Source of the DNA: a virus
DNA length: 44,555 nt
Strand: one strand, 5' to 3'
IMG/VR virus record: IMGVR_UViG_3300008266_000108
Span: 1 to 44,555 of that record
Shown here: in pieces, positions 5,420-22,771 of the stretch
Layout: the number at the start of each line of letters is the position of its first letter
Position numbering within the stretch: the first letter of the stretch is position 1
Made by a program: the position numbers and the translations under genes
Notes under the pieces: generated by a model
Seen by the model: the letters and a program-made list of their open reading frames with translations, nothing else
Database searches by the model: none
Told to the model about the DNA's origin: nothing

Positions 5420-6523
5420 TCACGCTGCGCTCCGCATCATGTCGTTGAAATCCATGCCGGCCTGGGGCCGCGCCCGGCGCACGCGCACGCCCGTCCGGTG
5501 GCCGAACCGCCGCGCCGCGCGCGCGTACAGCGCATCGGCCTTGCGGGGGTCCTTGTTGTCGGCGTCCTCACAGATCACCGCCTCGGCCACGCCATCGGGC
5601 AGCAGGATCGCCGGCTTCTCCATGTCGGGAATCGCGTCCCAGCCGCGCCCCGCGATATTGTCCAGCGACAGCGCCGCCCACACGGCCGCGCCCGCCGTCT
5701 CGCCGGCCATCGCCATCGCGGCCATCACGCTCAACCCCGTCTCGATGCCCTCGGCCAGGAACAGGCGCGGCGCAGTGGGCGTCAGCCGCACGGCCCCGCC
5801 CCACGCCACGCCCAGCATCATCTTGGCCGCCAGGCCCTTCACCTCGCGCTTGGCCGACAGATCGGCGTTCAGGAACGTCCGGTGCACACCCTTGAACCGC
5901 CCGTCGGACGAGGTGATCACCCCCACCATGGCGGGGTCTTCGCGCCGGTTCTCGTGATCCGGGCACTGCATCAGCAGGCGCAGCGACAGCGGCACGCCGC
6001 CCGGCGCGGCTTCGCCCCAGCTGCGGGCGATCGCCGCCGTGGGCACGCCCCGCCCGTCCAGATACCGCGTCAGCCGCACATCGTGCCGCGCCGCCCGCCA
6101 GATCTCCTCTGCCCCCATCATGCGCCGCTGCCGCGCCGCCGCCTCGCGCGCCTCGGCCTCCGCCATCAGCCGCGCCCGCCGCTGCGCCGCCTCGGCCTTC
6201 GCCCGCCGGCGCTCTTCGTCCGACAACGGAGCAGTGTCACGTGAAACATGCAGCAGCTCGCCCAGCTCGCTCAGCGCAGTGCCCAAGTCGACCGCCCGGT
6301 CCTTCATCCAGAAATCGATCACCGTGCCGTGCGCGCCGCACCCGAAACAGTGGAACGACGGCGGCACGTTCTCGACATAGACGGTGAAGCTGCCCGTCGA
6401 CTCAGCATGGAACGGACACCGCCCCACCATCAGCCGCCCCCGCCGCCTGAGATCCACGCCGGCCGCCAGGATAACCTCGGCCAGGTCGGCCCGCGCCTTG
6501 ATCTCATCGGCCAGCCCGGTCAT
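5420..6523 (-). CDS. DNA primase, CHC2 zinc finger plus Toprim
   Basis: 367 aa. A CHC2 zinc finger is at the N-terminus: C36, H39 (CPFH) and C59, C62 (CFGCG). A Toprim domain follows in the C-terminal half (LFLAEGIETGLS, then ICEDADN with the DxD-like acidic pair), and the protein ends FNDMM, typical of phage Toprim primases. It should make RNA primers and complements the helicase at 987-2735. Its ATG overlaps the winged-helix gene stop (ATGA, 6520-6523). Codons 92-98 are unusual for this genome and create a parS-like DNA site (see 6233-6248). Confidence 0.9.
   Translation of the reverse strand: MTGLADEIKARADLAEVILAAGVDLRRRGRLMVGRCPFHAESTGSFTVYVENVPPSFHCFGCGAHGTVIDFWMKDRAVDLGTALSELGELLHVSRDTAPLSDEERRRAKAEAAQRRARLMAEAEAREAAARQRRMMGAEEIWRAARHDVRLTRYLDGRGVPTAAIARSWGEAAPGGVPLSLRLLMQCPDHENRREDPAMVGVITSSDGRFKGVHRTFLNADLSAKREVKGLAAKMMLGVAWGGAVRLTPTAPRLFLAEGIETGLSVMAAMAMAGETAGAAVWAALSLDNIAGRGWDAIPDMEKPAILLPDGVAEAVICEDADNKDPRKADALYARAARRFGHRTGVRVRRARPQAGMDFNDMMRSAA
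6233..6248. promoter_or_regulatory. parS-like site inside the primase gene
   Basis: AGTGTCACGTGAAACA matches the bacterial parS consensus TGTTTCACGTGAAACA at 14 of 16 positions, with a perfect 11-base right part. The codons that create it (GTT TCA CGT GAC ACT GCT) are mostly ones this GC-rich genome avoids. This suggests the DNA site rather than the peptide is under selection. A ParB-like protein is encoded at 11729-13468. Binding is inferred. Confidence 0.45.
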
Positions 6524-15853: not shown

Positions 15854-18418
15854 TTAAATGAGAGACCAATGATGTTTTCTTGGCGGCGCGCTCGGGAACG
15901 ATGTGCTTTTGTTTTGAACATCCTGCGCAAATTTTTGGAATGTATCGGAGCCGCTGAGAATTGGCTCAAGTCGGACCATTACCGCCTCGCGTGCCTTGTC
16001 GGTCAGCGTGTTTGGCAAGATGATCGATAGAATATCCTCATCGACAATTTCGGCCAATCCGTCCGAGCCAGTCGCCAGTCCTCGCATTTGAATGCGGAAT
16101 GCCTCTGACGAAAGGCCTACAGCCAAATCAGCGAGGCGGTCCTCGCATCCGCGCTTGAAGCGCAGGCGTGTGCACCCATTCGTCACAACAACATTTGAGC
16201 AGTCGCCCGCAGCAATGAACCACTTTCCAGCGCTACTCCAAATATGCGCGATGAAAATGTCGCCCGGAGCAGCGGCAAGTTTTGCTCGAGATGGCAAGTC
16301 CCAGCCCATCTTCTGTTCATTGTCGTACTCGCCAATACCGACGCGCTCGATCTCCACATATCGATAGAGTTTTGATCGCTCGATACGAAGGCGAGAAGGC
16401 GGGGCGATCTCCAGCACATCCCCCAGTCGGAAGTGTTTTCCGCTGGCGATACTCGCCTGTATCCGAGCGAACTTTTCCGCATAGCGTTTTGGATCAAGAT
16501 TACGGTCAGCGCGGCTCAATATGCGCTTTATAGATATGCCCTCGGTGTGAACCCCGGGGGGGGGCTCGCGCCCATCGGCGGCCCAAGGAAAGCAGTCTAT
16601 CGCAGGTGACTGGATGAAGTCAGAGAGCACACGATCAAAGTCCGCGTCGAGTATCGGCTCATTGTTGTCATCCAGAAGCGGCTCTCCGGTGCTGGCCTCT
16701 CGCAAGTAAATCGGGCCCGCACTCTTGTCGCCCGCCCGCCAGCCAACCGACTCTATATTGCCCACGAAGAAAGAGTAATCTTCGCTCTCTGATGCGTTGG
16801 CCAGAGGAACGGCTCGCTTTTCCAAAACAACCGCAGACGCGCTTACGTCGGCGCCGGATTTCTTGAATGTGAAACGCGGGAACGAGAATATCCCCACTAT
16901 CCTTGTGTGCCGAAGAAGCCACTCACGTAGCGCTACATATTCAGTACCGCGATTTCCAAGATAGCCGTTCGGCAAAATAATGCCGACGCGGCCCCCGACC
17001 GTGCATAGCCGCACGCATAGCTCGGCGAATACTATACCCGCCTGTTGCGCCTCACGAACTTCGTCGGTCTTTGTCAGTCCACGGTCACTCGCCTTCCAAA
17101 CGTGAGCGACGTCAAATTTGCGCAGCACTTCATAGCGGCGTTCGACGATCTTAGTACCAAATGGGGGGTTGCAGAGGACAATCGGGAAAAGCTGGCTACT
17201 CTTGCCGAAGGCCACCAAACTATCTTGCGGCTTGATTTGGGTCTTTCCATCTCCATTCAGCACCATATTCAGGATGCTTATCTGTACGGCTTGCTCACTG
17301 TGATCGGCGCCCCAGACGCAAGAATCGGCCGGCGTCCCAACACGCCGGAACGCGCTGACCAAAAAGTCTGCACTACCGCAAGCGGGGTCGTAAACGTGCT
17401 CGCCAGGTTGGGGATTTGTAAGATCCACAATAAAATCTATGACTTCATGGGGGGTAAAGTATTGAGCTAAGTCCCACTTATAGAGGCTTTTCGCAAACTT
17501 CATATAAAACTGTTGAATAACGCTCGTCTTCGATCCCAAAACATTGATTGGGGCAAGAATTTTAGTGGCTTGACGTATTACTTCCGGATGGCACCGATAT
17601 ATGTCGTCAATCAACTTTCCGGGTGGTAGATATATGTTGTAATGACTGGCAGCCCGAGACAATGAGTCGTTCATTCGTCTCATCACATCGGCATCGGTTA
17701 ATGCCTCAACAGAATAATCCTGGATATCTAATGGGTCAGAGCGCTTTTTGCCTGCTCTATGACTGTTTTCATCAAAAATCTTTTGTAGCAATAGTTGTTG
17801 AATGAGGGTGTATCTGGCAGCCTTATCTGCGAGGTGCGTATGTATCGCATCCTCTATCTCATCAAATATGCGAACTAGATCCTTGGTTGGCGCAAGATCG
17901 TCAAAGCTCAACTTGGTGGAATCTACAGACGAGCCCCAGGTGGGTATCTTGCTGATCGGCGCTTCTTTGATAACTGACTTCTTTTTCTCGATCTGGCGAA
18001 AGAAAAAGCGTTGCTCAATGTCGTCCCAATATACGCCGAGGGCATCCATGTCCGGGACAAGATGCAGGGCGGACCGAACTTGATTGGCCTTCGCAGCCTC
18101 CGCAGAGACGTTGTCTCGCTTGATTTCCGCAAGCAATCGGAGGTGATCCAATCTCTTTTCCAGAGAGAGGCCCCTCAAGCTATCGAATGGCTGATCGTAA
18201 ACCGCAAAATCGGTTCGGAATGAATTCCGACCCGCATTGCCAAGCCGGAACAGAGTGGTTTCGACACCAAAATTCTCACGCGGGTACTTCCGGTGGATAA
18301 GGTATCGGATAGCGTCGATGCGCTGCTTCTCTTCAGTGAACGTCAATTGATCTGAGGCGCGCTGACGCACCCTCAGGCCGCCTCGAATTGGGCAATGCAG
18401 CAGCGCAGATTCAGCCAA
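15854..18418 (-). CDS. Single-chain restriction-modification protein (nuclease - N6 methylase - target recognition)
   Basis: About 854 aa. The N-terminus is an HSDR_N-like PD-(D/E)xK nuclease: Glu53 (FGVETT), Asp70 (RTDFAVYD) and Glu98-Ile-Lys100 (LAEIKRD). A type I-style N6-adenine methylase follows: QYFTP (319-323), motif I DPACGSADFL (344-353) and motif IV NPPFG (417-421). The last 200 or so residues resemble an HsdS-type target recognition domain (FRLGDVLEIAPPSR). No helicase motifs are seen, so it fits a type IIG-like enzyme. Codons are much less GC-rich than the phage core. The TTG start at 18418 is uncertain; GTG at codon 17 has a GAGG upstream. It contains a C9 tract near residue 620. 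Confidence 0.85.
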   Translation of the reverse strand: MAESALLHCPIRGGLRVRQRASDQLTFTEEKQRIDAIRYLIHRKYPRENFGVETTLFRLGNAGRNSFRTDFAVYDQPFDSLRGLSLEKRLDHLRLLAEIKRDNVSAEAAKANQVRSALHLVPDMDALGVYWDDIEQRFFFRQIEKKKSVIKEAPISKIPTWGSSVDSTKLSFDDLAPTKDLVRIFDEIEDAIHTHLADKAARYTLIQQLLLQKIFDENSHRAGKKRSDPLDIQDYSVEALTDADVMRRMNDSLSRAASHYNIYLPPGKLIDDIYRCHPEVIRQATKILAPINVLGSKTSVIQQFYMKFAKSLYKWDLAQYFTPHEVIDFIVDLTNPQPGEHVYDPACGSADFLVSAFRRVGTPADSCVWGADHSEQAVQISILNMVLNGDGKTQIKPQDSLVAFGKSSQLFPIVLCNPPFGTKIVERRYEVLRKFDVAHVWKASDRGLTKTDEVREAQQAGIVFAELCVRLCTVGGRVGIILPNGYLGNRGTEYVALREWLLRHTRIVGIFSFPRFTFKKSGADVSASAVVLEKRAVPLANASESEDYSFFVGNIESVGWRAGDKSAGPIYLREASTGEPLLDDNNEPILDADFDRVLSDFIQSPAIDCFPWAADGREPPPGVHTEGISIKRILSRADRNLDPKRYAEKFARIQASIASGKHFRLGDVLEIAPPSRLRIERSKLYRYVEIERVGIGEYDNEQKMGWDLPSRAKLAAAPGDIFIAHIWSSAGKWFIAAGDCSNVVVTNGCTRLRFKRGCEDRLADLAVGLSSEAFRIQMRGLATGSDGLAEIVDEDILSIILPNTLTDKAREAVMVRLEPILSGSDTFQKFAQDVQNKSTSFPSAPPRKHHWSLI
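16556..16564. repeat. C9 homopolymer tract in the restriction-modification gene
   Basis: Nine G on the plus strand, so nine C in the coding strand, encoding Pro-Pro-Pro between the methylase and the target-recognition part. A slip of one base would truncate the protein before its specificity domain. Confidence 0.7.
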
Positions 18419-20055: not shown

Positions 20056-20808
20056 CTAAACGCACAACCGCCCTTGTCCATCCTCGGCCGAGACCCGGGC
20101 GACGGCCGCCTCGAACCACCGCGCCTCCAGCTCGACGCCGATGAAGCGCCGGCCTGTCTTCATGCACGCGATCGCGGTCGTGCCAGATCCCATGAACGGA
20201 TCGAACACGATTCCTCCGGGCGGCACCTGCAGCTGGTCGAGACACCATGCCATCAGATCCACGCTCTTCTGGGTCGGATGCCAGTGCTCGCCGCGTTCCC
20301 AGCCGCGATGGGCGCCAGACCAGAACAGGTTCTTCAGACGTGCCGGGCGGCGCTGATCGGTCCACGCTAGCTCGCAGTCGGCCTGGTCCATCGGCTTCGC
20401 GCCGCAGCGCTTGTCCCACACCAGCCAGCCAGGCGATGCCGGCAGCCGGGCGGCAAAGTGGTTGGCGCCCCACAAGCAGGTGCGGGGCGCAAGATGCAGA
20501 AAGGGGGAGGGGTCGAAGTGGCGATCATCACCTGCGATCGCAACGCCGGCGAACTTGTGGCTTCCGCCACCGCCGACATAGCCGATGCCATAGGGGGGAT
20601 CGGCGACCAGGGCATCGATGCGCGCACGCACGATGTCGAGGCTGGCGGCATTGTCGCCGCGAAACAGGGCGACTGCCCCGAAGCGACGAAGCTCCGGGGC
20701 CGCCCTGGCCAGGTCGTTGACCAGGCCATCAAACGCCCGCGCGCGGAGATCTGCACCACGCGGCGGGCCGTCTGCATCATCCATCATCCTGTCGGCCATT
20801 GGGCGCAT
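20056..20808 (-). CDS. Site-specific DNA methyltransferase (beta class), Com-linked
   Basis: Up to 250 aa. Motif IV DPPYG (70-74) comes before motif I FDPFMGSGTTA (about 206-216), the order of beta-class N6-adenine/N4-cytosine methyltransferases. WHPTQKSVDLM and the final RRFIGVELE block are also typical. Start options are ATG 20808 (MRPMADRM) and ATG 20799; neither has a clean ribosome site, and both lie inside the com-like gene. This fits translation that depends on Com, as for mom in phage Mu. It modifies phage DNA, presumably against host restriction; the target sequence is unknown. Confidence 0.88.
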   Translation of the reverse strand: MRPMADRMMDDADGPPRGADLRARAFDGLVNDLARAAPELRRFGAVALFRGDNAASLDIVRARIDALVADPPYGIGYVGGGGSHKFAGVAIAGDDRHFDPSPFLHLAPRTCLWGANHFAARLPASPGWLVWDKRCGAKPMDQADCELAWTDQRRPARLKNLFWSGAHRGWERGEHWHPTQKSVDLMAWCLDQLQVPPGGIVFDPFMGSGTTAIACMKTGRRFIGVELEARWFEAAVARVSAEDGQGRLCV

Positions 20809-20965
20809 CCTGTGGCGCTCTCAGGCGCTCAGGCGGGCGGCTCGTGGCCGTCAGGAGGAAGTCGCCCTTGCAGCGCGGGCAACGGATTTCGACGCGGCCC
20901 CGGATCGCGTTGTTGAACGCGCGGAACCACAATCGCAGGCACGACGGACAGCGCACATTGCGCAT
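20777..20965 (-). CDS. com: Com-family zinc-finger translational regulator
   Basis: 62 aa, start MRNVRCPSCLRL. Four cysteines, C6, C9 (CPSC) and C29, C32 (CPRC), and the block VEIRCPRCK match the Mu Com protein, which ends its finger IEIRCPRCK. Mu Com binds the mom message and exposes its start codon. Here the gene overlaps the methyltransferase gene by 32 bases, so the same kind of control is likely. It lies beyond the terminator at 21133-21172 and so probably has its own promoter in the 170 bases upstream, where GGGGTG/CACCCC and GCCGGC/GCCGGC inverted repeats are found. Confidence 0.85.
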   Translation of the reverse strand: MRNVRCPSCLRLWFRAFNNAIRGRVEIRCPRCKGDFLLTATSRPPERLRAPQDAPNGRQDDG

Positions 20966-21132
20966 TGGGTTGACCTTGCTCGATCGCTGCAGTCGGATGC
21001 CGACGCCCTGGTCCAGGGTGCGGGCCGGTCCGCTGACAGCTAAGGCTGATCGGGCGAGGCTCCACCTCGCGGTTCGGGGTGTCTCTAGCACCCCGTCCCC
21101 CGCCGGCTTGTTGCCGGCGAAGCAACTCCCAG

Positions 21133-22098: not shown

Positions 22099-22755
22099 TC
22101 AGGCCTCCAGCATCGCCCAGGTGCGCGGCCCCGCCACGCCATCGGTCTTGATCGCGCGGCTCTGCTGGAACGCGATCACCGCCCGCTCCGTCTTCGGCCC
22201 GAAATCGCCGTCGTCCGGGCCGGGGTCGAAGCCTTCGCCATGCAGCGCCCGCTGCAGCGTCGCGACGTCTTCGCCCTGATCGCCAAGGCGCAGGGTAGGG
22301 CGTTCCTTCACCGGCGAAGCCCAGCCCTTCGCCGCCGCCTGACGCAGCCAGGCCGGCGCATTCACCGCCCGTCCGCCCGCGCCCCACACCAGCTGCGAGC
22401 CGAACCCGATATGCAGGCGATGCGGCCCCATGTACCCAACGCCCGCCCCGATGCCGGTCGCGCCCCGCGCGGCGGCCGCGGAGACGAAGGCAGCGACCAG
22501 GTCGCGATCGCCGTCTTCGAAATCCAGCAGGCGGCCAGCCTTGAACAGCTGCACGTCGGCCGCCTTGCCGTCGTCATGGCGTGTCGAGCCGGTGCGCGGG
22601 CCCTTGCCATGGGCGAACTGCCCGCCAGATACGACCTCGACCACGTCGATGCCGGCGGCCTCGCCGGCGCTGCGCAGCACCGCCACCAGGGCGTCGCCGA
22701 TCGGCAGCCTGCGGATTGTCGCCAGCCGCTCCTGGCTCTGTCGAACCTCAGTCAT
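22099..22755 (-). CDS. Endolysin: M15-like peptidase plus peptidoglycan-binding domain
   Basis: 218 aa. The N-terminal domain has the M15-type metal ligands His60 and Asp67 (STRHDDGKAADV), with His112 and His115 (GPHRLHIGFG) further on, as in D-Ala-D-Ala peptidase-type endolysins. The C-terminal 65 residues are a PG_binding_1 domain (LRLGDQGEDVATLQRAL then DGDFGPKTERAV). Start MTEVRQSQ follows GGAGG by five bases. No signal peptide is seen, so release depends on a holin. Located after a terminator and before the two membrane genes of the lysis cassette. Confidence 0.85.
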   Translation of the reverse strand: MTEVRQSQERLATIRRLPIGDALVAVLRSAGEAAGIDVVEVVSGGQFAHGKGPRTGSTRHDDGKAADVQLFKAGRLLDFEDGDRDLVAAFVSAAAARGATGIGAGVGYMGPHRLHIGFGSQLVWGAGGRAVNAPAWLRQAAAKGWASPVKERPTLRLGDQGEDVATLQRALHGEGFDPGPDDGDFGPKTERAVIAFQQSRAIKTDGVAGPRTWAMLEA

Positions 22756-22771
22756 GAACCCTCCGGGCAAT

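Follow-up and report, generated by a model that had tools for sequence, protein, structure and literature searches.

Gene organization at the com–methyltransferase locus

The window, an IMG/VR virus record of 44,555 nucleotides, encodes lambda-type terminase, portal, head protease, major head and tape measure proteins, J-like tail proteins and an integrase, in agreement with the first-pass annotation, which had named a lambda-like phage. The structural genes run leftward on the minus strand and are followed by an endolysin-like gene (22099–22770), two small open reading frames (ORFs), the com-like gene and the methyltransferase gene (Table 1), and the gene order after the structural block therefore places the com–methyltransferase pair last in the late gene block, like com–mom in Mu. 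A second DNA methylase of 854 residues (15854–18418, minus strand) is encoded elsewhere in the window; this N6 enzyme (PF02384) is type I/II-like, and its gene, in a stretch of lower GC content (0.55 versus about 0.65), was probably acquired separately as part of modification or restriction-modification. The ORF at 5420–6523 has a PADLOC match to a reverse transcriptase but is a DNA primase according to PHROGs, and so the reverse transcriptase assignment was rejected.

Table 1. Features of the com–methyltransferase locus in window coordinates
Feature	Position	Strand	Description
Leader upstream of com	20996..21105	minus	Local alignment to the leader directly preceding a com-less methyltransferase gene (L180/L181)
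Likely com Shine-Dalgarno, AAGG	20974..20977	minus	8-nt spacing to ATG 20965
com-like gene, 62 aa	20777..20965	minus	N-terminal four-cysteine zinc finger, charged tail; stop TGA 20779–20777
Candidate tandem-hairpin Com operator	20809..20854	minus	Covariance model R2 and fixed-offset extraction
Hairpin 1, stem CGGC/GCCG, pentaloop CACGA	20838..20850	minus	CC-N2-GAG core
Hairpin 2, stem GCGC/GCGC, hexaloop CTGAGA	20815..20828	minus	CC-N3-GAG core; ends 3 nt before the methyltransferase Shine-Dalgarno
Likely methyltransferase Shine-Dalgarno, AGGA	20808..20811	minus	8 nt ahead of ATG 20799 (codon 4)
N4/N6 beta-class DNA methyltransferase	20056..20799	minus	247 aa from the preferred ATG 20799, 250 aa from ATG 20808; PF01555 1.2e-18, phrog_67 1.1e-35

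The com product begins with MRNVRCPSC and later contains VEIRCPRCKG. Its zinc-finger cysteines are arranged as C6-x2-C9 and C29-x2-C32, and all four align with those of Mu Com. The product matches phrog_6417 'translational regulator' (3.6e-8) and phrog_13819 gpCom (1e-6), and its score against the Pfam Com family (PF10122) is 22.4 bits, slightly below the gathering cut-off of 22.9. The four-cysteine Com finger of the first-pass annotation is thus confirmed; the VEIRCPRCK stretch that it described as an ending closes the zinc finger and is not the end of the protein. Direct look-ups in phage, E. coli and IMG/VR collections gave no near copy of this com gene or its DNA. Two com ORFs at other loci (L262 and L275) have CxC in place of CxxC at the first knuckle and keep both hairpins and a downstream methylase, so that either the first knuckle tolerates change or the com genes there are decaying.

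In the methyltransferase, motif IV (ADPPYGIGY) precedes motif I (VFDPFMGSGTT). Since DPPY stands ahead of DPFMGSGTT, the enzyme belongs to the beta class, as had been proposed and as the PF01555 match supports. The DPPY motif suggests adenine as the predicted target base.

The first-pass annotation had also stated that neither start codon has a clean ribosome site. This does not hold, because AAGG precedes the com ATG 20965 and AGGA precedes ATG 20799; the first methyltransferase ATG (20808) is the only one of the three starts without a ribosome site. In 45 of the 56 com loci that could be judged, the modification gene starts at a distance of 25, 28 or 31 nt from the hairpin 2 loop. In the window, this distance is 25 nt with ATG 20799 and would be 16 nt with ATG 20808. 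Because ATG 20799 has both a ribosome site and the hairpin distance seen in relatives, it is probably the true start of the methyltransferase gene. Accordingly, the 32-nt overlap of the earlier description is correct when counted from the com stop (20777) to ATG 20808, and the overlap predicted from ATG 20799 is 23 nt. Among relatives, com and the modification gene overlap by anything between -122 and +10 nt, whereas the hairpin-to-start distance stays fixed, and so the overlap is incidental and its length is not the conserved feature.

The tandem-hairpin element and its conservation

The RNA immediately ahead of the methyltransferase start, GAGCGCCUGAGAGCGCC, forms the hairpin GCGC-[CUGAGA]-GCGC (hairpin 2). 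A wider scan has identified hairpin 1, CGGC-[CACGA]-GCCG, which has a five-base loop and lies 22 nt upstream of hairpin 2. A covariance model (R2) built from 52 loci, with the window left out of training, matches the window element with 51.2 bits and an E value of 9.5e-15, and the next match in the 44.5 kb stands at 0.16. With such an E value in 44.5 kb, the com ORF with its tandem hairpins is not a chance occurrence. No Rfam family matches the hairpin element.

Com loci were collected from 19 phage records including the window, 80 IMG/VR loci and 80 genome loci, and clustering at 85% left 116 non-redundant loci. A scan profile of six diverse Com proteins was too divergent, and a closer protein set worked. 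The consensus element consists of 4-bp stems with loops CNNGA and CNNNGA, 22 nt apart, at a fixed place within com. One or both hairpins occur in 112 of the 116 loci compared with 12.7 expected from synonymous-codon resampling, in which the protein is kept, and both hairpins with a spacing of 19–25 nt are present in 72 compared with 0.32 expected. Other offsets in the same loci yield a hairpin in only 1–15 of about 110 and no dual hairpin. When segments are cut relative to the codon of the second zinc knuckle (CPRC), so that the stems themselves do not select the sequences, full pairing at the fixed offset is seen for hairpin 1 in 91 and for hairpin 2 in 72 of 115 loci, many of the others being loop-size variants.

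Covariation was measured on an alignment (A4) anchored on the CPRC codon only, which replaced a stem-selected one (A3). In the 94 loci of A4, from which some 20 loci with evident indels or variant loop sizes were excluded, 98.7% of the cells are paired and double changes occur at all eight pairs. The covariation score is 0.485 compared with 0.176 for shuffled alignments and at most 0.119 for a slid structure, a comparison in which kinship among the loci partly remains. Within the dual-hairpin set, com runs through the hairpins in two different reading frames (62 and 10 loci), and Mu uses another codon phase. These differences in frame speak against conservation of the Com protein as the cause of the hairpins.

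In 398 Pseudomonadota genomes, all matches of at least 31.5 bits lie within com ORFs except a repetitive locus (L263). There, a GAGCGCC-rich repeat (1501–1546 and adjoining repeats) matches the operator model but lies outside any com ORF, and the ORF downstream of it is similar to Mu-like gp16; this match is probably due to repetitive sequence. A search of the genomes for trans-acting operator sites gave just com loci and low-scoring chance matches. No report of the tandem-hairpin element was found in the literature searched, which covered a minority of subscription papers. These comparisons of sequences show that the tandem hairpins are a widely conserved element, a predicted on-switch for at least four kinds of DNA-modifying enzyme.

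The survey of Com neighbours suggested by the first-pass annotation shows that 93 of 112 downstream genes encode DNA-modification enzymes of four families, namely 62 D12 adenine methylases, 23 N4/N6 methylases, 5 C5-cytosine methylases and 3 Mom proteins. Mom is therefore a rare partner of Com, and a methyltransferase (90/112) is the usual one. With these counts, the earlier proposal that Com-dependent translation has been moved from mom to a methyltransferase survives in one part only: Com control of the methyltransferase is supported by hairpins carrying the motif selected by Com in vitro (SELEX), and the move as a special event is unsupported.

Another 13 of the 112 downstream proteins have an ABC-type ATPase match, mostly together with an acetyltransferase domain. 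At these loci (L016:1658–2925, L052:2795–3922 and 11 others), com is followed by a gene of about 375 codons with ABC-type ATPase and acetyltransferase (GNAT) matches. Two of these proteins were tested, and both fall into phrog_11143, a PHROG of unknown function; at L016 a 49-aa ORF (phrog_28816) lies between com and this gene. By its association with com, the ATPase-acetyltransferase is a candidate new DNA-modification enzyme. In the Pseudomonas phage DVM-2008 record (EU982300.1; L015:2880–2923), the operator model matches with an E value of 1.7e-7 in a degenerate com-like ORF directly ahead of cma, a colicin M-like bacteriocin gene (start 2968), which suggests that the Com switch may also have been fitted to a bacteriocin gene.

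Genes related to the methyltransferase of the window mostly occur by themselves, and none of 76 such relatives has com or a dual hairpin. The closest methyltransferase relatives (L180 and L181, 62% identity) are among those without com. Their sequences (about 1885–2020) contain a leader like that of com in the window, followed by GAGGTCAAGATG and the methyltransferase, with a strong GAGG ribosome site directly ahead of it. The arrangement resembles the outcome of a cassette-like insertion or loss of com, and these two loci provide a natural com-minus comparison.

A putative Com switch ahead of the methyltransferase gene

Com from a Mu-like prophage of Haemophilus sputorum selects RNAs with GAG(N)2CC motifs, often two, in SELEX experiments, and the core CC(N)2-3GAG is recognised in a hairpin loop (PMC6483171). 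In Mu, Com binds a hairpin beside a translation-inhibiting structure and exposes the mom start, thereby allowing mom translation (PMC6483171). Both loops in the window are identical to the SELEX core. The genes and hairpins, the covariation, the constant spacing between hairpin and start codon in many modification genes and the match to the SELEX motif are all observed features, and they lead to a well-supported interpretation, with a probability of about 0.82, that a Com-type translational switch lies ahead of the DNA methyltransferase gene. What we infer for this switch is that Com binds the hairpins, that it activates and does not repress, that it sets the timing, and that the methylation protects against restriction.

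In the proposed mechanism, com and the methyltransferase gene would be carried on one mRNA late in infection, and com would be translated from its own ribosome site. Com, a predicted zinc-finger RNA-binding protein, would then grip the adjacent CACGA and CTGAGA hairpins in the 3' portion of the com coding region and make the methyltransferase ribosome site usable. Since Com would have to build up first, methylation would be delayed and would mostly affect phage DNA that has already been replicated and is soon to be packaged.

This mechanism is weakest in its inhibitory part. RNA around the start was folded, as the first-pass annotation had suggested. In free RNA of the window both the Shine-Dalgarno and the start codon of the methyltransferase gene are paired; when the two hairpins are forced to form, the start codon is partly released and the AGG of the Shine-Dalgarno is not. 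Folding across the loci gives no sign of a general sequestration of the modification-gene ribosome site, the mean unpaired probability being 0.50 compared with 0.47 for shuffles and 0.38 for com starts. Hairpin 1 and the start region are only weakly more complementary than swapped controls (p 0.02 and 0.24).

Ordinary translational coupling, in which ribosomes ending com re-initiate at the overlapping methyltransferase start and the Com protein has no role, would fit the overlap of the genes and the presence of the AGGA site and an ATG just upstream of the com stop. However, simple coupling would have no need of a pair of hairpins whose loops are conserved and whose stems covary, and the overlap varies among relatives although the hairpin-to-start distance does not, so that coupling is improbable as the explanation. 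It is marginally less probable that Com is an autogenous or operon repressor, which would bind the hairpins in its own coding region and limit translation or stability of the mRNA. The position of the operator inside the com coding sequence would suit such a repressor, as would the folding results, in which the downstream ribosome site is not clearly sequestered in the absence of Com. In Mu, however, the same protein–hairpin pair activates mom translation (PMC6483171), and hairpin 2 of the window is placed as in Mu, its loop being nearly the same distance ahead of the start.

The hairpins might also be a by-product of a conserved Com segment (approximately PERxRAS) in GC-rich genomes and have no RNA function, since this segment is fairly conserved as protein in many relatives, and the relatives are partly akin. 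Yet the synonymous resampling that keeps the protein predicts far fewer dual hairpins (0.32) than are seen (72), the hairpins persist while the reading frame and the protein sequence differ between groups, and every one of the eight pairs shows double compensatory changes. The by-product explanation is therefore already strongly disfavoured, and it is the least probable of the three.

A Com-type switch of this kind may have wider significance. Phages need to modify their own DNA but must not poison or mark the host prematurely. If Com and the tandem hairpins are a general timer, Mu com–mom would be one member of a broad family of switches found mainly with methyltransferases. It is rather more probable than not that Com, as a protein family paired with a tandem-hairpin RNA, is a portable on-switch that is exchanged between phages and placed on unrelated modification enzymes (D12, N4/N6 and C5 methylases, Mom and the new ATPase-acetyltransferase family) and apparently on a bacteriocin gene in one Pseudomonas element, the tandem hairpin being a previously undescribed RNA family. 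The 46-nt RNA element is now defined and can be used in reporter and binding assays, and the search model may help to find modification genes of unknown type, such as those of the ATPase-acetyltransferase family. A compact translational switch could also find use in synthetic biology.

Comparison with known com loci

The pairing of com with a methylase gene is already known, being annotated in B3, KS5 and other phages, and the RNA element is the interesting part of the com–methyltransferase locus. The Mu-like prophages FluMu/Hin1523 and their relatives carry an adenine methyltransferase in the place of mom. In Mu itself, as in the window, a 62-aa zinc-finger Com overlaps the start of a DNA-modification gene, and a hairpin with a C-N3-GA loop, AUGC-[CUGCGA]-GCAU, corresponds to hairpin 2 and lies 26 nt ahead of the start (25 nt in the window). 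The two differ in that Mu carries a single hairpin and encodes the acetamido-adenine enzyme Mom, whereas the window, which represents a lambda-type phage, carries two hairpins and encodes a beta-class methyltransferase. A hairpin matching hairpin 2 is also found in Moraxella phage Mcat3, AGUC-[CCAAGA]-GACU.

Genes 21 and 20 of the Burkholderia P2-like phage KS5 were published in 2010 as a Com translational regulator (gp21) and an N4/N6 methylase (gp20) (PMC3091744). As in the window, the Com ORF of KS5 (and of AP3, Mana and Carl1) lies on the minus strand and overlaps a PF01555 methyltransferase by 23 nt, with the hairpin AGGC-[CACCGA]-GCCU before the start. KS5 differs in being a P2-like phage with a tail-gene neighbourhood, and its hairpin 1 loop deviates. 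Pseudomonas phage B3, in which ORF47 and ORF48 are annotated as Com and Dam methylase, likewise has com followed by an overlapping DNA methylase gene and tandem hairpins, the second being GCGC-[CAUCGA]-GCGC. In contrast to the window, B3 is a transposable Mu-like phage, its methylase is of the D12 type, and its hairpin 2 is read in another com frame.
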